Positions 22,268 to 58,080 of a stretch of DNA of 64,000 nt are shown here, in pieces (position 1 is the first letter of the stretch; each line of letters opens with the position of its first letter). The notes below the pieces were generated by a model. The model was not told the origin of the DNA and ran no database searches. It worked only from the letters and a program-made list of their open reading frames with translations. Location: the NCBI RefSeq assembly GCF_008831045.1, contig NZ_WAJS01000004.1, positions 1-64,000 of the forward strand. The letters run 5' to 3'. This DNA is from Adlercreutzia muris (lineage in GTDB: Bacteria; Actinomycetota; Coriobacteriia; Coriobacteriales; Eggerthellaceae). The position numbers and the translations under genes were made by a program.

Positions 22268-24280
22268 CTAGAGCTTTGCGGCGGTCTGGCCGGCCAGCCA
22301 TCCGTGGGTCATGGCCATGCCGACCGAGTTGCCCGCCATGGGGGTGCTATAGCCGAAGCCATAGCGCCCACCCAAGCAGTTGCCCGCGGCGTAGAGGCCC
22401 TTGATGGGCTTCCAATCGGTGGTCAGCACGTTCTGGGTCTCATCGGTCACGAGGCCCGACAGCGTCACCATCATGGGGCTGGAGCTGTGGGACAGCTGGC
22501 CTTTGCCGCCGTAGAATGGAGGCGTTTCGATCGGGACCATGTAGGCCGCGTCCTTGCCGAAGTCGGTGTCGCCGTTGGAGGACTTGCACAGCTCGTTGTA
22601 GTGCTCGATGCTCTTAAGGAATTCGGCCGCCGCATCGCCCTCGTAGCCGAGGAGGGTTGCGAGTTCCTCGAGGGTGTTGGCGCCGAATACCGTCCCCTTC
22701 ATCATTTTGCGCTCGGCGAGATTGGCGCCGACCACCTCGGTGCCCTCGGGGTTACCGAGTTCCACTTTGGCCATGTCGGCCTCTAGCTGCACCATATAGT
22801 CGTCCATGCCGAAGTTCGGCGCGCCGTGATCGAGCGGGGCGGCGCCGACGATCTTTTTCCAGTTGGCGTCCGACACCCATGTGCACAGGCCATGGGGCTG
22901 CCGCAGACACACCTGGGTGAGCTGGGGAATGGCCCCTTCGTTGCAGAAGCGCTTGCCCTCGGAGTTGATCATGAGCATCGGGGTGGTACCCCACGGGCCG
23001 CTTGCGCCGCCGCCCAGGCCCATCCAGCCGCGCGGGCTCGGCTCGATCATGCCGCCAGCCCAGCAGCCCATCTTATGGGCTGCGCCGACGCGAAAGCCCG
23101 TCTGGGTCCAGTCGTCGGCGGTGGCACCGCTGCGCTCGCCCCACTCCATGCCCTCGTTGAGCAGCGCCCAGCACATGGCCGGATCGCCGATGAAGTCGCC
23201 GGCGGCCAGCACGACGCCCTTGGCGGCATTCAGCTGGATGTAGCCGTCCTTGCCCTGGGCGATAAGGCCCGTCACATCGCCGTTCTCGTTCTGCGTGAGC
23301 ACGATGCCGGTGGTCTCGAAGAGCCAGTCGGCGCCGTTCTCCTGAGTGTGCTTCACGATGTACTTATGTACGTACTCGATGTTGTTGCCCTGGTAGCCGT
23401 AGAACTGGGCGTTGCAGGGCCAAGTCTTGTAGCCGCCGCAGGAGATGGGGTACTCCACGTTGGCGCCGCTCCAGGCAGCCTGGGTGTTGCACAGGGGGTA
23501 CTCGAACATGTTGGACATGTCGAAGGTTCCTTCGTCAGCGACGGGCTCGCCATCGATCACCACCATAGTGTCCTTCATGTACACAGCGCTGTCGTTTTTC
23601 TTGCGCTCGTCGGCGTAGGAGTCGTAAATCTCCTTGTAGCGGTCGAACATCGGACCTGACTGCTGCACGTAGTTGCGTAGCAGGCCGGGGTTCACGCGGC
23701 CGCCGGCGCGCTTGCAGAACTCAGCCGTGATCTCTCCGGTGTTGTAGGGGCCGAAGCCGCGGTCGATGAGGAACTGGGAGTTCACGTGTCCGATGTCCTC
23801 GCCATACCAGCCTGCGAGGTTCGTGCCGGAGGTTCCCTCTTCGTCCACATAGCTGGACCAGGGCTGCATCTCCACCACCGCTACCGTGGCGCCTTCGTCT
23901 ACCGCACCGCAAGCCGCCATCAGCCCCGCGTGGCCGCCACCGAGCACCACAACGTCGTAGTCGCGTGTTTCCACGATCTCGTCCTCGGCGATGACGGGCG
24001 CCTCGCCCAGCCAGTCGCCCGGTCCGCAGTAACCGCGCACACGGCCGTCCTCGGTCAGCCCGCTGAAGGGCGTGGGATCGGCCGCTGCGCCGCCCGGGCC
24101 GCCCGGACCCCCCGGGCCACCTTTGCCGCCCTCGGCCTCGCCGCCGGTGTCGGGAGCCTTCACGTCTTCGGTTTTCGCCACCACATCGCCGCCCTGCGGC
24201 GTGCAGCCGGCGATGCCCAGCGCGGCACCTGCCGCAGCGGCACCCACCAGAAAGTCTCGGCGGGAAAGTGTCCTCTCCAT
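22268..24280 (-). CDS. Tat-exported FAD-dependent flavoprotein reductase (fumarate reductase-like)
   Basis: A 670-residue member of the FAD-binding-2 family. Residues 6-26 are a Tat signal (SRRDFLVG) with a lipobox Cys26. A Gly/Pro-rich linker (about 55-75) precedes the Rossmann motif DVVVLGGGHAGLMAA, and the C-terminus has the FAD motif IKGLYAAGNCLGGRYG. Relatives reduce fumarate, urocanate or aromatic/steroid acceptors as terminal reductases. No haem motif or FMN domain is present, so electrons must come from a separate donor. The ATG at 24280 has AAGGAG 6 bases before it. It is divergent from a luxR regulator that probably controls it. Confidence 0.88.
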   Translation of the reverse strand: MERTLSRRDFLVGAAAAGAALGIAGCTPQGGDVVAKTEDVKAPDTGGEAEGGKGGPGGPGGPGGAAADPTPFSGLTEDGRVRGYCGPGDWLGEAPVIAEDEIVETRDYDVVVLGGGHAGLMAACGAVDEGATVAVVEMQPWSSYVDEEGTSGTNLAGWYGEDIGHVNSQFLIDRGFGPYNTGEITAEFCKRAGGRVNPGLLRNYVQQSGPMFDRYKEIYDSYADERKKNDSAVYMKDTMVVIDGEPVADEGTFDMSNMFEYPLCNTQAAWSGANVEYPISCGGYKTWPCNAQFYGYQGNNIEYVHKYIVKHTQENGADWLFETTGIVLTQNENGDVTGLIAQGKDGYIQLNAAKGVVLAAGDFIGDPAMCWALLNEGMEWGERSGATADDWTQTGFRVGAAHKMGCWAGGMIEPSPRGWMGLGGGASGPWGTTPMLMINSEGKRFCNEGAIPQLTQVCLRQPHGLCTWVSDANWKKIVGAAPLDHGAPNFGMDDYMVQLEADMAKVELGNPEGTEVVGANLAERKMMKGTVFGANTLEELATLLGYEGDAAAEFLKSIEHYNELCKSSNGDTDFGKDAAYMVPIETPPFYGGKGQLSHSSSPMMVTLSGLVTDETQNVLTTDWKPIKGLYAAGNCLGGRYGFGYSTPMAGNSVGMAMTHGWLAGQTAAKL

Positions 24281-24418
24281 GTTCATCTCCTTTTGTCGTA
24301 CCCCCTCCCCAGGCGGGGAGCTCGTTGTTTTCGCGACTCGAGGCCGCTCCTCTCTTTTCCCATGTTTTCTCGAGCGAAAGAGCACCCAGTCAGAGCGAAA
24401 CGCTGCGAAACACGGTAA

Positions 24419-24437
24419 TTCACCCGAGCGGGGTGAA
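24419..24437. promoter_or_regulatory. Candidate LuxR operator TTCACCC-N5-GGGTGAA
   Basis: A perfect 7+7-bp inverted repeat with a GAGCG centre, in the divergent region between the flavoprotein and luxR. A -10-like CTATCT lies about 17 bases to its right, so it sits where an activator at the -35 would bind. The same arrangement recurs at 26949. Confidence 0.6.
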
Positions 24438-24534
24438 GGGGTTGGGCGTGGGCTATCTGGCCGATTCGGAGCGCAGTGCTAAGATGGGAGAAGAGCTCGA
24501 CGGAAGTTCGAAGTCGTGAGGTTGGGAGGGGCGA

Positions 24535-25962
24535 GTGCTTTCGAGGAGAGCGAGAAGAAGCATCGATGGGCCGCTCTGCGTAGTCCTCGGCTTGCTGTTT
24601 ACATGGAACTGGGTCATATCTCAGAGCCCTACGAACCTGGTGGTTGAAATAGGATCGTGGGCCATTCCTTCCCGAGTGGTGCTCCTTGTCAGCCTGGTGG
24701 TTGCCGGCCTCCTTCTCTTCCTTGTGCGGAGAAGCACCGCGCCGGCGGCGCCGCGGGCCCGCAAGATCCAGCGATATGCGGCGGCCCTATTCCTCGGTCT
24801 CGTCATTCTCGCCATGGATATCGTCGACGGCTCGTTCGATGGAGAGGTGGCCGGACCGGCGTTCTTCGTGCAGTCGGTGGCAATGGGAGTTGCGAGCGCC
24901 TATCTTTATATGGAGATCGGATCGCTTTTCGGTATGGAGGGGGCGCTGCGGCCGCGGGTCGTATCGGTGGCCGCTGTGGCCGGGCTCCTTCTGTGTTCGC
25001 CCTTGCAGATGGTGCTCTTTTACACGCCGGGCCAGATGAGGGAGGGCCTGATGGTCGCCTTTCTCGTAGCCATGCCGTCCTTCTACGATTGGCTCGCCGC
25101 GAAAGACGGCCTGCGTGTGAGCCGGCACCGGGAGACGGCGCGCATGCCCCTTCAGTTCGCCGCGACCCTTCTGCTCGTCGGAATTGCCTTGGGGATGCTT
25201 CAGGGGGTCCTCTCCGAAACTAACACCGGGCACAGCGTGTTCAACCCCCTCTCCGCGCTCGGGTTTCCCCTCGCTGCCCTGGTGGCAGCGGCCACGATCC
25301 TCTGCGGCCGCCTTGATTACAATCATATTATCTACCAGGTGGACATTCCCATTCTCGCCTGTGGGTTCGCCTTCGTAGCTTTGGGGGGCAATCTGTTCGT
25401 GGGCTTCGTGCTCTGCCTTGCCGGCTACTATGCTGCGTTCGTCTCACTGTGGGTTCTGGGTGCCTACCTCACAGCTGAGTCTCCTGCAATGGTGCGGTGG
25501 CTGTTCGCCCTCGTGGGGGCCGTGCTGGCAGCGGGGCAGGCGCTGGGTCTCATCGCAGTGGATACGCGCCTGTTCGGACTCGGGCGGGAGGACGCCGTGG
25601 TAATGGTCGTCGTCCTGCTCCTGGCGTGCCTGTACCTCAGCAACAGCAGCTCGCCCTATGAGAGTTGGGGAATCGTCAAGCCCGCTCAGCTCTCCTCGGA
25701 GCCTGATATGGCCGATGCCTGCGAGCTCCTCGCGGCGGAGACGCGCATGACCAAACGGGAGCGAGAGATTCTCCCCCTGCTCGCCCAGGGGCGTAACAGG
25801 AAGGTCATCGCCGAGCAACTTGTTTTGTCTGAGAACACCGTCAAGACCCACATCTCGAATCTCTACGCGAAGGTGCACGTGCACAGCCAGCAAGAACTCA
25901 TCGAGCTGGTTCGCCGTCGCATGGTCGGCTCCTCCGACCGGGAGGAGCGGAGCGAAGACTAG
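24535..25962 (+). CDS. LuxR-family regulator with polytopic membrane domain
   Basis: A 475-residue protein. About 12 hydrophobic helices fill residues 1-370. A LuxR-type helix-turn-helix follows at about 405-465 (TKREREILPLLAQG, SENTVKTHISNLYAK). In this lineage such regulators lie beside reductase genes and are thought to sense the substrate or a redox signal. It starts at GTG 24535 with GGGAGGGG before it. It is divergent from the flavoprotein, and its stop overlaps the stop of the convergent HemW-like gene by 4 bases (CTAG). Confidence 0.88.
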   Translation: MLSRRARRSIDGPLCVVLGLLFTWNWVISQSPTNLVVEIGSWAIPSRVVLLVSLVVAGLLLFLVRRSTAPAAPRARKIQRYAAALFLGLVILAMDIVDGSFDGEVAGPAFFVQSVAMGVASAYLYMEIGSLFGMEGALRPRVVSVAAVAGLLLCSPLQMVLFYTPGQMREGLMVAFLVAMPSFYDWLAAKDGLRVSRHRETARMPLQFAATLLLVGIALGMLQGVLSETNTGHSVFNPLSALGFPLAALVAAATILCGRLDYNHIIYQVDIPILACGFAFVALGGNLFVGFVLCLAGYYAAFVSLWVLGAYLTAESPAMVRWLFALVGAVLAAGQALGLIAVDTRLFGLGREDAVVMVVVLLLACLYLSNSSSPYESWGIVKPAQLSSEPDMADACELLAAETRMTKREREILPLLAQGRNRKVIAEQLVLSENTVKTHISNLYAKVHVHSQQELIELVRRRMVGSSDREERSED

Positions 25963-26885
25963 CCTGCGGGGCAGCTCTCTACGGCCACGACCGTCTTGCT
26001 CGGGTCGTCGGGGAAGCTCACGTAGGTGGTGTAGTCGTCGGTGTTGACATAGGAGAGGCCCCCGAAGCAACTCCGGGCGTCTATACCCAGGCCGATTTCG
26101 GGACATTGTCGGGCCTGGAGCACGGCGAAGGTGTCGCGGAACCGCTCCTCGTGGGCGAACAGACCGGGAAGGTATTCGAGGTAACCGTATTCGCGAAGCC
26201 GCCCCCGCGCCGCGGCGACGTTCTCCTCTTCTAGGGCCGTCCCTTCTGTGCGGCCTAGGCAGGCGTGGGAGTAGGGGGCAAGAGTGAAATGGGAAACGCC
26301 GACGCCGGCGAGGGAGCGCAGACCGCGTAGCAAGGCCGGTGTCTGCTGACCCGGCGTGCCCACGATAAGGCGCACGCCCACGTTCCCGATATGGAATTTG
26401 TCCAGAAAGAGCAGGGCGTTCTGGATATCGTTCACGTTGAAGGGTCGCTCGAGCCGGTCGAGCTCTTCCGGCTCGAGACTGTCGACGAGAAGCTCCACGC
26501 GGTTGATGGCTCCCTGGGTCCAGCCGGTGAGCGAGGCCGTGCCAACGGTCTGGGGCGTTGCCACAAGGGTCGTGGTACAGCTTGGCGTGCAAGAAAACGC
26601 CTGGTGCAGGGTCTTGGTTAGACGTCCCAGATGGTCGGGACTCAGCACGGAAGGCATGGGGCCATCGAGTCGGAAGGCGGCGACTGCGAGTGACGCGGCA
26701 TCGGGGGCGACAGCACGGGCCTCTTGCTCGAGGGCGTCGAGGTAGAGTGTGCGCGCCGCTCGGTCTCCGGTGAGGGTGTGGCCCGGGATAAAGGACGTCG
26801 ACCGTGAAACGAAGGGGATGTTCACGCGAACGATGGCTGGTTGAGGTTCGATCGTCTCAACGGGCTCGGTTGGTACAGCACTCAT
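25959..26885 (-). CDS. HemW/HemN-like protein lacking the radical-SAM cysteines
   Basis: A 308-residue protein that can be followed along HemW/HemN: the N-terminal RVNIPF strand, PSVLSPDHLGRL, the GAINRVELLVDSL region, RLIVGTPGQQ, HFTLAPYSH and the GLGIDARSCFGGLSYVN segment. Where the family has a CxxxCxxC cluster, residues 24-32 read PFVSRSTSF with no cysteine, so it should not bind the 4Fe-4S/SAM cofactor. It may be a haem-binding or regulatory paralogue (inference). The ATG at 26885 follows AAGGAGG. A GGGTGA palindrome lies 64 bases upstream. Confidence 0.75.
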   Translation of the reverse strand: MSAVPTEPVETIEPQPAIVRVNIPFVSRSTSFIPGHTLTGDRAARTLYLDALEQEARAVAPDAASLAVAAFRLDGPMPSVLSPDHLGRLTKTLHQAFSCTPSCTTTLVATPQTVGTASLTGWTQGAINRVELLVDSLEPEELDRLERPFNVNDIQNALLFLDKFHIGNVGVRLIVGTPGQQTPALLRGLRSLAGVGVSHFTLAPYSHACLGRTEGTALEEENVAAARGRLREYGYLEYLPGLFAHEERFRDTFAVLQARQCPEIGLGIDARSCFGGLSYVNTDDYTTYVSFPDDPSKTVVAVESCPAG

Positions 26886-26948
26886 CGGCGCCTCCTTAAC
26901 GGGAAACGGGTTTTTCACGACCATAGGTTATTTCAGCGAGAACGAGTA

Positions 26949-26963
26949 CACCCGGAATGGGTG
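26949..26963. promoter_or_regulatory. Candidate LuxR operator CACCC-N5-GGGTG
   Basis: Same form as the site at 24419 (five-base centre, GGGTGA half-site), upstream of the HemW-like gene. Reading leftwards, a -10-like TAACCT begins about 20 bases after it. Confidence 0.5.
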
Positions 26964-27573
26964 AAGTTCCACGTTCTGCTTCGCGCATCTGGGGATGGGC
27001 ACGAGTTGATGGCCCTTGCGAGCGTCGGCGAAGTTTCCATGGAGCAAAAATGCCGGCAGAACCGATCACTGTCCTGCCGGCGTGCTCATCGTCGCGAGCA
27101 TTCGACATCGCTCGAAGGGGTGCGCCCCGCCACAGCGGTGCGCCACCGGGTTCGCGCCGTCGTGGCGGCGAAGCCCGTCGTTGCAAGGGCCGTTAAGGAG
27201 GCCCTCGCGAACCCCAGCGAAGATCGCAGAGAAAAGAAGTGGCGCGGTGAGGAGGGGTGCCTCACCGCGCCGGAGGAGGGGGTAGCGGCATCGAGTGCCG
27301 CATCTGCTTTCAAGGGGATTGAAGCAGAGCGATGGAAGCAGGGGAACTTCCAAATCGCTGATACGAATAATAAAGCAAGACTTGTTTTCGCGTCCAGAAT
27401 GTGTATCGCCTCTCCAAGAGAACGGCGCAAATTTGGCGGCGAACTGTCATCTTGGGCGAACAAGTCGCCGTTTGCGCCGTTCAGCGTGCCGCTCGCCCTC
27501 GGTAGAGCTTCCAGAAAATCTTCGACCGCTTCCTGTATCATAGATGGGAAAACTTTTGCGGAAAGGAATTCCC
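26964..27573. other. Gene-poor region with strong hairpins
   Basis: No convincing gene. It holds a perfect 12-bp hairpin at 27241-27271 (GGCGCGGTGAGG stem), which on the leftward strand is followed by a pyrimidine tract. It also holds an 8-bp hairpin, GCCGGCAG / CTGCCGGC, at 27052-27081. A 151-codon leftward frame (27086-27541) has no ribosome site and no recognisable sequence. Confidence 0.45.
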
Positions 27574-28479
27574 ATGGCCGATATCGCCCTGCGCTTCTTC
27601 AAAGATATGCTCGTTGTCGCTTCTCCCGTGCAGGCGGCTTTGCGTCGCCAAGGTATCGAGGACGCACGCGATCAGGCCCTCGCCGTTTTGTTGGAGCCCG
27701 AGACCATCGAGGATGCCTATCGTCTGGAAACCGCGGCGGGGCCCCAGTGCCTTGTTACCCCCGTGGCCGATTTCGCTCCGGCCCGTCTGACGGCTTTGGG
27801 GATGGAAGACGCCGCCGAGAAGCTTGCCCGTGCGGCGGTGGCTATCCCGCGCAGCTTCAAGCCCCAGCACCTTCTCGTGGAGATTGCGCCGTGCGGGTTG
27901 CCGCTCGATCCCTCGTCGAAGGGGTCGCTTGTGGAGAACCGCGATCAGTACGCCCGCGCCGCGGGTCTGTTCGACGCAGCCGATTTCGACGCTTTCTTCC
28001 TGAATGGCTTCACGACGGTCGATGACCTGAAATGCGCGCTCATGGGGCTGCGCAAGGTAAGCGATGCTCCAGTTTTCGCCTCGGTGGACGTGACCGCCGA
28101 CGGCATGCTGGCCTCGGGCCGGGGAACGCTGGCCGAAGCGGTGGCCGTCATGGCCGAGTTCGGGGCCTCGGTGGCCGGCTTCGCCACGCTTTCCGCCCCT
28201 GCCCGCGCCGCTGCCCTGGCTACCACCGTGCGCGAGACGCTTGGGGCCCAGGGCGCCGACCTCTGTATCATGGCAACCCTGGCGGCGCGCGAACGCAACG
28301 ATCGCCAGCAGGGATCCACGCCGGAGAATCCCTATTATGTCCCCGACACCATGGTGGCCGCTGCGGCCGATCTGCGTGCTGCGGGCGTGCAGTTCCTCCG
28401 CGCTGCGGGGAATGCCACGCCGGCCTACACCGGCGTCCTCGCGGCTGCGGTGGCGGGCCAGGACGTAGCGGTGGAGTAG
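27574..28479 (+). CDS. Homocysteine S-methyltransferase-like protein without zinc-binding cysteines
   Basis: A 301-residue protein whose pattern follows the Hcy-binding TIM barrel (MetH/YbgG type): CLVTPVADFAPARL in place of the TNTF-type strand, LLVEIAPCGLPLDP, PVFASVDVTADGMLASG, and a terminal YVPDTMVAAAADLRAAGVQFL. The zinc ligands of the family are missing. The usual GGCCGT strand reads RAAGNAT, and the mid-barrel NC motif is absent. It is unlikely to act as a normal thiol methyltransferase, and its role is unknown. The ATG at 27574 is preceded by GGAAAGGAA. Confidence 0.65.
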   Translation: MADIALRFFKDMLVVASPVQAALRRQGIEDARDQALAVLLEPETIEDAYRLETAAGPQCLVTPVADFAPARLTALGMEDAAEKLARAAVAIPRSFKPQHLLVEIAPCGLPLDPSSKGSLVENRDQYARAAGLFDAADFDAFFLNGFTTVDDLKCALMGLRKVSDAPVFASVDVTADGMLASGRGTLAEAVAVMAEFGASVAGFATLSAPARAAALATTVRETLGAQGADLCIMATLAARERNDRQQGSTPENPYYVPDTMVAAAADLRAAGVQFLRAAGNATPAYTGVLAAAVAGQDVAVE

Positions 28480-54547: not shown

Positions 54548-55990
54548 TCATGCGCCTTCTTGTCGTCCGAGACCATCCTCTACGAGGTCGATAAGCTCCT
54601 GCTGGGTGTGAACATCGAGCTTCATGTAGATGTGCTTGACGTGGGTCTTCACGGTGTTGTACGACAGGGTGAGCTGGTCGCTGATGGCTCGGCCGTTGCG
54701 GCCGCGGGCAAGCAGGGCGCACAGTTCCACCTCGCGCTTGGTAAGACCATGCTGCGTGCCGAGCCGAGCGCAGCGATCTTCGATGCTTTCCCGCTCTTTT
54801 CCGCTTTCAATCGGCGCGACGGCGGGCGTGATGGGCTCCACGCCGAAGATGACGGCGCGGAAGCTGAACTTCGCGAGCCAGAGAAAGGCGAGGGCCACAA
54901 AGGAGACGAGGATGGCGCAGAGTAGGCCTGCGGCCAGGGCATCGTTCGTGCCCACGAGGCGGTTTACGCCATGGCCCGACAAGGTTCCCATCAGCGTACC
55001 CAGGCCCGTGAGGAAACATGCCCAGGCGGCCACGCGCAGGGCGCCGATGCGGTTGCGCGAGCCGATGCCGAAGATAACCAGGTAGTGGATGATGGAGAAG
55101 CAGGCGGATCCGCTGCGGAGGATGTAGTTGCTCGCAGATCCCAGGGGGAGGAAAAGCGACACAATGGCGCAGAGCAGGCCCGCGATCACGACGAGGGCGG
55201 CCAGGGCGGCTAAAGGGTCGATGAATCCGCTGCGCCGTCGACTGGCAACGACGACCCCGCCTACGAGAAGCGCGGTGACGATACCCGAAGGAGATGTATC
55301 GACGGGAATGCCCGAGATGCAGTTGAGGGCGAGGGAGAACCCAAATACGAGATTGAACACGAAAAGGCACAGGAAAGCCGGATTCAGGGGGCTGACAAAG
55401 GCTGCCGGATTGGAAAGTTCGACGCTCTCCAAGCCGCCCGTCTCGTTCAAAAGCGCGAGATTCTCCCTCGCCAGGTGGGAGGAGAGAGCGAGGGTCGCAC
55501 AGGGAAGGACGGCGCACAGAATGAGATGCATCGGAAGAGAGAAGAGGTCGACAGCTCGCTGGCCGAGCGTGCCGATGAGAGCCGAGGCGCAGATGCACAG
55601 CATGGCGCTGCGTATGTTATCGAGCTGGCAGAGGGCGATAAGGTACATGAGCGTTGCCCATAGGCTTCCCAGCTGCCAGAGGGCGTATCCGCCGCACAGT
55701 GCCGCCGTCGAGCCGGTTTTCGCGTGGAGGCCCACCAGGAGCGTTCCGGCGATCACGAGGACGCAGCTCGCGGTTGCGGCCCAAGGGCCCATCCGGGTGA
55801 GATACCCGCGTTTCAGGGCGAAGAGCACGAGAAGGAACGGGCATATGTTCGCCACAATGAACAGGGTGTCGCGGGCAACGGGTGCTGCTACCGAGAGCGG
55901 GGCGATTATATCGGCGTTCAGTAGCCGATTGCAGGCGATTTCGCAGGCTCCTGCCGCGAAGACGGCGAGCCAGGGCTTGGTGGTGCTCAT
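54548..55990 (-). CDS. LuxR-family regulator with polytopic membrane domain
   Basis: A 480-residue protein of the same plan as the regulators at 24535 and 61537: about 12 helices, then a LuxR HTH (about 415-475) with GLTKREVELCALLARG, SYNTVKTHVKHIYMKL and VHTQQELIDLV. The ATG at 55990 follows GAGAGGA. It is 226 bases downstream of an intact flavoprotein gene on the same strand and convergent with a flavoprotein fragment, so either may have been its target. It appears intact. Confidence 0.87.
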   Translation of the reverse strand: MSTTKPWLAVFAAGACEIACNRLLNADIIAPLSVAAPVARDTLFIVANICPFLLVLFALKRGYLTRMGPWAATASCVLVIAGTLLVGLHAKTGSTAALCGGYALWQLGSLWATLMYLIALCQLDNIRSAMLCICASALIGTLGQRAVDLFSLPMHLILCAVLPCATLALSSHLARENLALLNETGGLESVELSNPAAFVSPLNPAFLCLFVFNLVFGFSLALNCISGIPVDTSPSGIVTALLVGGVVVASRRRSGFIDPLAALAALVVIAGLLCAIVSLFLPLGSASNYILRSGSACFSIIHYLVIFGIGSRNRIGALRVAAWACFLTGLGTLMGTLSGHGVNRLVGTNDALAAGLLCAILVSFVALAFLWLAKFSFRAVIFGVEPITPAVAPIESGKERESIEDRCARLGTQHGLTKREVELCALLARGRNGRAISDQLTLSYNTVKTHVKHIYMKLDVHTQQELIDLVEDGLGRQEGA

Positions 55991-56020
55991 TGACGCGAAG
56001 TCCTCTCTTCCCTTCTCACT

Positions 56021-56026
56021 ATTATA
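56021..56026 (-). promoter_or_regulatory. -10 box of the LuxR gene at 55990
   Basis: TATAAT on the leftward strand, 30 bases before the start codon. The -35 is weak (GCAGTC region), as expected if an activator is needed. Confidence 0.4.
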
Positions 56027-56078
56027 GTCGAAGGGCCTCTCTGACTGCTCGCCGTGCGCGTTGCCTCGAATGCGCCAA

Positions 56079-56107
56079 AGGGACGACCCTCGGCGAGGGC
56101 CGTCCCT
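56079..56107 (-). terminator. Hairpin terminator between flavoprotein and luxR
   Basis: A 13-bp stem on the leftward strand AGGGACGGCCCTC / GAGGGTCGTCCCT with one G-U pair, followed by TTT. Confidence 0.65.
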
Positions 56108-56157
56108 ATAGGGGGAGGCGTGTTCGTAAGCGCCTTTCGACGCAACGGTGTGCTGCG

Positions 56158-56199
56158 GTGCCGCGCGACGGTTCCATCGTGACCCGTCGCGCGGCACCT
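56158..56199 (-). terminator. Hairpin just after the flavoprotein gene
   Basis: A 15-bp perfect stem GGTGCCGCGCGACGG / CCGTCGCGCGGCACC with a 12-base loop, 17 bases beyond the flavoprotein stop. Confidence 0.65.
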
Positions 56200-56215: not shown

Positions 56216-57973
56216 CTATGCCTTCTTTCCGGCGATGTGCTGCACCTCATGGCGGGCGAAGGTGAGCAGGCGGCCGCAGGCCATGCCGTGAGTCAAATTG
56301 TAGTAGCCGTCGGCGAACAGCGAACCGGCGCAGTTGCCCGCCGCCCAGAGACCCTCCAGGACCTCGCCGTCGGTCTTGAGCACCTGCCCGTCAGCATTGA
56401 TGCGAAGGCCGTCTGAGGTGTCCAGTAGGGTACCGCCGAGGGTCACGCCGTAGAAGGGCGCCTGGCGAATAGCGGACAGGGTGTAGGGTTCCTTGCCGAA
56501 GTCCTCGTCCACCTGTTTATCGTAAAGTTCGTTGTAGCGCTCGATGGATGCGAGGAAGTTCTGCTTATGTTCGCCTTCGAGCAGCAGTTTATCGGCGAGT
56601 TCCTCGAGGGTATCGGCCTTTACGACGACACCCTGGTCGATTTGCTCCTGCAGAAAGCCCTCGGTGCCTGCACCCATGACGTTTACGATGAGATTGGTAA
56701 GGCTCGCGCAACCGAGGCTGTGGAAGCGGGCCACGTCATCGGCGAAGTTCGCGTCCCACACCTCGAGGTACACGCCGCCCGGTTGAGAGGCGGCTGCGTA
56801 GGGCAGCCAGTCGTAGTTGCCCGACTCGTTGGTGAAGCGCTCGCCGTGCAGGTTCATCTTGAGGAAAGGCTGCGAGCCGGGATTGAACTGACCTGAAGCG
56901 GGCAGCATGGGCTCGCCCGTCGCCACGCTCTCCTCGGTCCAGCCGGCCTTGGTGCCCGGAGGGACGGCACCTCGATCGAACACGAAGGCCGCTGCGCCGG
57001 GATCCTTCATGGCCCCGGCCCAAAGGCCAGCCTTGATGCCCATGCCCGTGTTTCCCGGCTCCCAGTTGGAGGCGGTCAGGCAGCGCGGGAGGATGGGGTT
57101 GATACCCTCGATCATGTCGGGGTTCGCCGCGTAGCCACCCGTGGCGAGCAGCACGTCCTCAGCGTTGATCTGCACATAGCCGTCTTTGGCATCGAAGATG
57201 GCTCCGCTGACTGCGCCGCTCTCGTCGGTGACGAGCTTGACGAGGTCGAAGCCGAAGAGCACTTCGTTGCCCTGTTTGTTCAGCAGGTCCTCGAAGATCT
57301 GGTTGCGGCTCATTTCGGCATGCTCCTCGGGGCAATCCTCGCGAGCCGTGTAGCTCACCTGGATGGGCGGCACGTACATATCGACGCCTACGCCGCCTCG
57401 CCCTTCACCCTGGTCGGCATCGAAGCTCACTGCGAAGCCATACTGATCCATAATGCCTTTTACCCAGGCATGCATCTCGGCGGATTCGTTCAGCCACGTT
57501 TTTGTGACGCGCATGTCGTTTTTGCCCCAGAAGGCTTGACGCAGCACGTTGTTCAACTTGATGATGTCGACGCTTTTGCCGGCCTCGGCGCATTCGGGAA
57601 TGTTTACGGCTCCATACCAGCCGCGAGCCGTGGCGACGGCTCCGGCCTTCTCGGCGATGAGGAAATCAACTCCGAGTTCCTGGGCGGTGACGGCGGCGGC
57701 AAGGCCGGCGTTGCCCGCGCCCACGATGAGGAGCTTGGTGCTACGCGTCTCGACGATGTCCGCTTCGGCGATTTCGGGAGCTGTGCCGAGCCATGCGGGG
57801 GTATTGCCCACAACGGCCATGCCGCTGTCGGTGCCGCCCGCTGTAGCCGCTGCATCGGGGCCGGTTTCGGCCATGGTCTTCGGCGAGCAGCCGGAGAGTC
57901 CGGCCACGGCGGCGGCTCCGGCTGCCAGGGCGGCGCCGGAGAGGAAGTTGCGGCGAGAAATACCTTGAGTCAT
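56216..57973 (-). CDS. Tat-exported FAD-dependent flavoprotein reductase (fumarate reductase-like)
   Basis: A 585-residue FAD-binding-2 protein. The Tat motif is SRRNFLSG (6-13), with lipobox Cys29. The Rossmann motif is KLLIVGAGNAGLAAA. The C-terminal FAD segment VLEGLWAAGNCAGSLFADGYYN is present. It is shorter than the paralogue at 22268 and has no FMN-binding or haem domain. The substrate is unknown; family members reduce fumarate-like or aromatic acceptors. The ATG at 57973 follows AGGAGGG. It is followed by two terminators and the luxR gene. A TCACCC-N5-GGGGTA site lies about 90 bases upstream. Confidence 0.88.
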   Translation of the reverse strand: MTQGISRRNFLSGAALAAGAAAVAGLSGCSPKTMAETGPDAAATAGGTDSGMAVVGNTPAWLGTAPEIAEADIVETRSTKLLIVGAGNAGLAAAVTAQELGVDFLIAEKAGAVATARGWYGAVNIPECAEAGKSVDIIKLNNVLRQAFWGKNDMRVTKTWLNESAEMHAWVKGIMDQYGFAVSFDADQGEGRGGVGVDMYVPPIQVSYTAREDCPEEHAEMSRNQIFEDLLNKQGNEVLFGFDLVKLVTDESGAVSGAIFDAKDGYVQINAEDVLLATGGYAANPDMIEGINPILPRCLTASNWEPGNTGMGIKAGLWAGAMKDPGAAAFVFDRGAVPPGTKAGWTEESVATGEPMLPASGQFNPGSQPFLKMNLHGERFTNESGNYDWLPYAAASQPGGVYLEVWDANFADDVARFHSLGCASLTNLIVNVMGAGTEGFLQEQIDQGVVVKADTLEELADKLLLEGEHKQNFLASIERYNELYDKQVDEDFGKEPYTLSAIRQAPFYGVTLGGTLLDTSDGLRINADGQVLKTDGEVLEGLWAAGNCAGSLFADGYYNLTHGMACGRLLTFARHEVQHIAGKKA

Positions 57974-58062
57974 AGAGGTCCCTCCTAGAATGGGTCTTGC
58001 CAGCCGCCCGCCCCACTTTGGCGGGCGGCGTTCATCCTAGGTTTTTCCTGGAGGGAGGTGCG

Positions 58063-58080
58063 TCACCCCCATTGGGGTAT
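58063..58080. promoter_or_regulatory. Weak LuxR-type operator candidate
   Basis: TCACCC-CCATT-GGGGTA: one good half-site and one imperfect, with the same five-base centre as the sites at 24419 and 26949. A leftward TAGGAT -10 candidate lies about 23 bases beyond. Confidence 0.35.

Follow-up and report, generated by a model that had tools for sequence, protein, structure and literature searches.

A palindrome recurs beside a membrane LuxR gene of Adlercreutzia muris

Which DNA site does a membrane-bound LuxR regulator of the Eggerthellaceae recognise, and which genes does it control? In E. lenta DSM 2243, 83 membrane LuxR-type proteins have been reported, and three LuxRs with 12 transmembrane helices (12-TM), DadR, CadR and HcdR, activate neighbouring enzyme genes (Dong et al. 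2022, PMC9734109). We addressed the question at a locus of Adlercreutzia muris where the original prediction had seen a TTCACCC-N5-GGGTGAA palindrome joining a flavoprotein gene, a luxR gene and a HemW-like gene in one regulon. The features below lie in the window, by which we mean the whole stretch of 64,000 nucleotides that was analysed; gene starts were taken from open reading frames.

22268-24280, minus strand: TAT-exported FAD_binding_2 flavoprotein of the fumarate/urocanate reductase superfamily; its start is probably the ATG at 24280
24381-24399: O2, a degenerate second site, AGCACCCAGTCAGAGCGAA, on the flavoprotein side, 38 bp from O1
24419-24437: O1, a perfect 7-N5-7 inverted repeat, TTCACCC-GAGCG-GGGTGAA (TTCACCCGAGCGGGGTGAA), in the divergent flavoprotein/luxR gap
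24477-24485, plus strand: candidate extended -10 element of luxR, TGCTAAGAT, with TAAGAT at 24480-24485, 42 bp from O1
24535-25962, plus strand: membrane LuxR with 12 predicted membrane helices and a C-terminal GerE helix-turn-helix (HTH)
25959-26885, minus strand: HemW-like (HemN/HemW family) protein; start ATG at 26885 behind GGAGG
26920-26925, minus strand: TATGGT, the -10 box before the HemW-like gene; its distance from O_H is exactly 21 bp
26947-26965: O_H, putative operator of the HemW-like gene, TACACCC-GGAAT-GGGTGAA (TACACCCGGAATGGGTGAA), with 6 of 7 pairs intact

The LuxR protein (24535) is encoded beside the TAT flavoprotein and divergent from it. Its GerE HTH (PF00196, residues 405-458) scored 61 bits against a cut-off of 23.5, and the recognition helix reads S432-E-N434-T-V-K437-T-H. 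The AlphaFold model, built from a 12-sequence alignment (mean pLDDT 75), has exactly 12 long helices before the HTH, and hydropathy concurs. An orthologue of the flavoprotein matches the structures of flavocytochrome c fumarate reductase and urocanate reductase. The HemW-like protein is devoid of the radical-SAM cysteines: IPFVSRSTSFIPG stands at the position of CxxxCxxC, and no iron-sulfur motif was found there. CxxxCxxC is missing from the orthologues in two other genera (g21 and g37) too and is found in some paralogues; those of the modules L192, L194, L195, L203, L205 and L206 retain two or three of the cysteines. A HemW-like gene regularly accompanies LuxR/TAT-flavoprotein pairs (20 loci). 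Adjoining the module, a stand-alone homocysteine S-methyltransferase-like protein is encoded at 27544-28479 (PF02574, weak full-length score).

O1 is the perfect palindrome that had been described between the flavoprotein and luxR genes. The second palindrome, said to be of the same form, is perfect only in its 5-N5-5 core (CACCC-GGAAT-GGGTG, 26949-26963); extended to 7-N5-7, one of its seven pairs is broken. O2 was recovered unaided by a motif-free scan for tandem self-similar sites. Elsewhere in the window, another TAT flavoprotein (56216-57973, minus strand) adjoins a LuxR with asparagine at the position of N434 (N-type; 54548-56197), and an ACCCC-N4-GGGGT palindrome, GTCACCCCCATTGGGGTAT, lies upstream of this flavoprotein at 58062-58080.

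The motif is rare and confined to few gene contexts

In the whole genome (2,765,182 bases), O1 is the single exact match to TTCACCC-N5-GGGTGAA, and O1 and O_H are the sole sites with one mismatch or less. With up to two mismatches, we found 6 sites genome-wide against 11 for the reversed pattern. The motif thus shows no excess at this level, which is what a regulator of few genes should give. The relaxed form TWCACCC-N5-GGGTGWA has three matches in the genome: O1, O_H and TACACCCATGGTGGGTGTA, located in the gap that separates a further membrane LuxR from a further TAT flavoprotein (locus L003).

Equal frequency in unrelated intergenic regions would speak against the original prediction. We observed otherwise: the family's 140 genomes contained 15 sites of the relaxed form and none of its reversed control. 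At least 12 of the 15 are found in the gap of a LuxR/flavoprotein pair or ahead of a HemW-like gene, and the other three lie near flavoprotein reading frames, before a transporter and within a coding frame (one each). The transporter site, TACACCCGTTGCGGGTGTA (L118:1501-1519), precedes the gene of a probable membrane transporter and has CAGTAT at 21 bp; this gene is possibly the target of a LuxR in another genus.

The palindromes and their spacing are conserved in other genera

Close relatives of the LuxR and HemW-like proteins are absent from 8 other genomes of the genus, where the best LuxR identity is 30-32%. The whole three-gene module is present in genera g21 (G052, G054 and G055) and g37 (G089 and G090). 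All five genomes keep the palindrome of the flavoprotein/luxR gap (TTCACCCGTCTCGGGTGAA, CTCACCCGAGACGGGTGAA and TTCACCCGACACGGGTGAA), the exception in a gap that can otherwise hardly be aligned between genera. In all five, too, the HemW-like gene is preceded by its own copy, which reads TTCACCC-N5-GGGTATG in g21. In g37, the HemW-like gene is located elsewhere, yet has its own perfect palindrome. Because the palindrome is kept in both positions, even where the HemW-like gene has moved, this comparison of sequences supports the predicted regulon of three genes.

The spacing is likewise constant. Every one of the six HemW-like promoters, the window's included, has its -10 hexamer exactly 21 bp from the site, and not the 17-20 bases predicted for the -10-like box; the hexamers are TATGGT, GAAGAT (three times) and GATGAT (twice). 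In the flavoprotein promoters of the five orthologous loci, O2 is spaced 37-39 bp beyond O1. A conserved O2 half, GGGTGA, stands 21 bp before GATGAT or GATGCT in five of six flavoprotein promoters. In the window's own flavoprotein promoter, O2 is degenerate and the hexamer at 21 bp is GAAAAG, which is not -10-like, so no class II geometry was found there. At the paralogous pair L003/L235 of the same genome, the palindrome and a GATGAT towards the flavoprotein are again 21 bp apart.

These data bear on two readings that need no DNA-binding protein. Chance palindromes would agree with the absent genome-wide excess at two mismatches, but conservation in three genera, position, fixed spacing and recurrence in a hold-out set (below) refute a chance origin, whose probability we consider negligible. 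An RNA hairpin acting as a terminator or attenuator is very improbable as well. A G+C-rich 7-bp stem with a 5-base loop can indeed form; however, O1 is located between divergent promoters with no T-run behind it, and an RNA element has no need of a fixed distance from the site to a downstream -10.

On the luxR side, the predicted -10-like box was presumably TATCTG, 16 bp from O1, which is not kept in the orthologues. The extended -10 element TGCTAAGAT, with TAAGAT at 42 bp, appears the better candidate, and -10-like hexamers cluster at 42-44 bp in other LuxR promoters.

A common layout at 12-TM LuxR loci

We scanned all 4-mers with spacers of 0-15 upstream of the LuxR and flavoprotein genes of the same genome. 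TCAC-N9-GTGA, in the register of the window palindrome, ranked first of 4096 4-mer x spacer combinations (5 observed against 0.1 expected; nominal P 1.6e-5, about 0.06 after correction). Among 91 upstream regions from further loci, the majority in the same family, it was seen again (8 against 0.9), and this set also contains a second class, TCCCCC-N5-GGGGGA. In class B (TCCCC), a perfect palindrome near luxR has an imperfect partner 37-40 bp off on the flavoprotein side, and CAnACT or TTGAAT stands 21 bp beyond the imperfect site in most loci. Class B loci have SxETVKSH-type LuxRs and often paired sites (L165, L169, L178, L182, L184, L185, L008, L010, L011, L017, L028 and L183); L017/L229 is the member in the A. 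muris genome. Class C (AATCAYC...TTTCAGYGATG) belongs to other HemW-like modules and has the -10 hexamer TAGTGT or TATTCT at 21-22 bp; most of its loci (L196-L202, L204 and L206) hold two copies, with LuxRs of the SENTVRTHVRHIY type.

A motif-free scan of self-similar site pairs gave two peaks, one at 37 bp (12 against 1.0) and one at 39 bp (14 against 2.4); coding DNA raises the counts at multiples of three. We counted [TC]A...T hexamers at 40 non-redundant sites. On the luxR side, 11 had a gap of 21 bp, 6 a gap of 22 bp and 13 a gap of 42-44 bp. Towards the target gene, measured from the second half-site (n = 34), the gaps of 21 and 22 bp had 14 and 5 hexamers, respectively. No gap in 2000 shuffles had more than 7 hexamers on the luxR side or 6 towards the target. 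The two sites of the L241 clan are only ~27 bp apart, and even so the gap of 21-22 bp to the -10 is preserved in most members. Generally, the predicted sites of Eggerthellaceae 12-TM LuxRs would be inverted repeats of 17-19 bp, often paired, with the last base 21-22 bp before the -10 of the target or of luxR, the position of a class II activator. The 21 bp of all six HemW-like promoters and the same geometry at many other 12-TM LuxR loci agree with an activator at the -35, as had been proposed from the window.

Could O1 instead chiefly repress luxR, or loop with O2, the targets being activated via other elements? Two observations would suit this reading: in the paralogues L003 and L121, a strong luxR promoter, with TATACT/TATAAT at 14-15 bp, shares its -35 region with the palindrome, and in the window O1 is distant from the flavoprotein -10. 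However, the 21-bp gap to weak -10 boxes of target genes is the classic layout of an activator, the lone operators before HemW-like genes share this gap, and the 12-TM LuxRs studied so far activate (PMC9734109). We therefore regard repression as rather unlikely and favour activation.

Several searches were of little use or came out negative. A generic search around LuxR genes for perfect palindromes of 6 or 7 bp gave a weak excess at many spacings and was uninformative owing to coding DNA; an excess of CACC-N2-GGTG proved to be a codon-phase effect. A search in the A. muris genome for an O1-type palindrome followed directly at 21 bp by a -10 returned L235 and one weak partial match, as it fits few loci when O2, not O1, is promoter-proximal on the target side. 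Neither TCAC nor TCCC sites were found beside 13 LuxR loci in a 160-kb stretch of another genome, in which dadR was not identified. About two thirds of the N-type LuxRs of a first set (below) have no recognisable site beside luxR, and likewise most of those with glycine or serine at that position.

Two further observations concern other palindromes. At L234:2467-2527 in the A. muris genome, an N-type LuxR gene is preceded by two TCAC-N8-GTGA palindromes at a distance of 45 bp from each other. Molybdoenzyme-linked LuxRs with glycine at the N434 position in G053 (C1, 633.7 kb and 641.1 kb; L312 and L314) have ATCAT-N9-ATGAT palindromes at -146 and -143, possibly a further operator class.

The half-site covaries with the recognition helix

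LuxRs with SxNTV in the recognition helix go with TCAC-N9-GTGA, and those with SxETVK with TCCC-N9-GGGA. In a first set of 85 LuxRs (HTH identity below 80%), typed by the residue at the N434 position, asparagine (N-type) was accompanied by TCAC-N8/9-GTGA in 11 of 36 and by TCCC-N8/9-GGGA in 1 of 36. Glutamate (E-type) was accompanied by TCAC in 0 of 13 and by TCCC in 5 of 13 (Fisher P 0.001 for Asn/Glu by TCAC/TCCC). LuxRs with glycine (15) or serine (12) had neither TCAC nor TCCC, and no shared palindrome was found for them. TCAC-N9-GTGA itself occurred in 9 of the 36 non-redundant N-type LuxRs against 0.23 expected (P 4e-12).

The hold-out set comprised 17 LuxRs from two other queries, fetched later and with less than 80% HTH identity to all earlier ones. 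TCAC was found for 10 of 12 N-type and 0 of 3 E-type members, and TCCC for 0 of 12 and 2 of 3, respectively. The N-type members are mostly of one clan, picked since its founder had a site, so that they stand for fewer than twelve independent events; in general, loci of common descent are not fully independent. Two loci, L207 and L239, are exceptions to the residue-base rule. At L207:2129-2215, two TTCCC-type palindromes lie 35 bp apart before a flavoprotein, with CATGAT ~21 bp beyond, and the neighbouring LuxR is N-type and convergent, contrary to the rule.

A preference of asparagine for adenine and of glutamate for cytosine is chemically plausible. The covariation suggests that the half-site is determined in part by the residue at the N434 position: Asn goes with TTCACCC/TCAC and Glu with TTCCCCC/TCCC. 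As a general operator for membrane LuxRs, the predicted motif holds in part: its layout and helix-linked half-sites appear to recur, but the exact sequence is not universal and each helix type has its own half-site.

The same covariation weighs on whether the palindromes belong to another, co-regulating transcription factor. Many factors bind 7-N5-7 palindromes, and some LuxR loci have no site. However, the half-site follows the recognition helix of the adjacent LuxR, whose HTH is of the NarL/GerE class that binds such repeats, and a different factor is distinctly unlikely. With good confidence, we take the palindromes to be operators of the 12-helix LuxR (24535), acting as a class II activator of the HemW-like gene and the flavoprotein gene.

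Proposed mechanism and related systems

We infer activation from the layout of the sites and from the published activators of the same family (PMC9734109). Two C-terminal HTH domains of LuxR would bind the 19-bp inverted repeat, with the last base of the site 21 bp before the -10 and its centre at about -43 (taking the -10 as -12 to -7). Beside the -35, the HTH pair would recruit polymerase to weak -10 boxes. The HemW-like gene would be switched on directly, and the TAT flavoprotein through paired O1 and O2. O1 probably acts on luxR too, at about -64 here and about -43 in many paralogues. The inducer, presumably the substrate of the flavoprotein or a relative of it, would be sensed by the membrane domain.

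The lux box of Vibrio fischeri is an inverted repeat of ~20 bp at about -42 that overlaps the -35 and serves class II activation by a protein with a GerE-type HTH. The arrangement proposed here shares the inverted repeat overlapping the -35, the class II position and the HTH type. However, LuxR of V. fischeri is a soluble quorum-sensing receptor that reads another half-site and has no second site in a fixed register of 26-40 bp. The response regulators NarL, DosR and VraR have the same HTH class, but are soluble proteins controlled by phosphorylation, with other half-sites and spacings. We take the variable helix residue at N434 to align with the base-contacting lysine of DosR.

There is also a close likeness to the 10-12-TM LuxRs of Coriobacteriia, which share the 12-helix membrane domain, the C-terminal LuxR HTH, the gene beside a respiratory enzyme and the many paralogues per genome (PMC9734109). 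DadR, CadR and HcdR regulate molybdenum catechol dehydroxylases, whereas the LuxR of the window adjoins a flavoprotein and a HemW-like gene. We found no operator motif in the main text of that paper, and no published operator for the membrane LuxR family in the open literature searched; the candidate operator, its spacing and the specificity residue are what we propose here.

The candidate operator ties a HemW-like gene whose product is without radical-SAM cysteines to a flavoenzyme system. More broadly, we lean slightly towards the view that each Eggerthellaceae genome has, in its dozens of 12-TM LuxR paralogues, an insulated network of one-component regulators whose protein-DNA code can be read. 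In such a code, the common layout would consist of inverted repeats, often in pairs, with 21 bp between the promoter-proximal repeat and the -10, and Asn versus Glu at N434, perhaps with Lys versus Ala at K437, would switch single half-site bases. Membrane LuxRs govern many enzymes by which Eggerthella-type gut bacteria reduce drugs, dietary compounds and host metabolites. With a candidate operator, its spacing and a specificity residue at hand, the prediction of targets, the design of reporters and the search for substrates can be put to the test. If the code is true, the targets, and possibly the inducible substrates, of many orphan regulators would become predictable from sequence.
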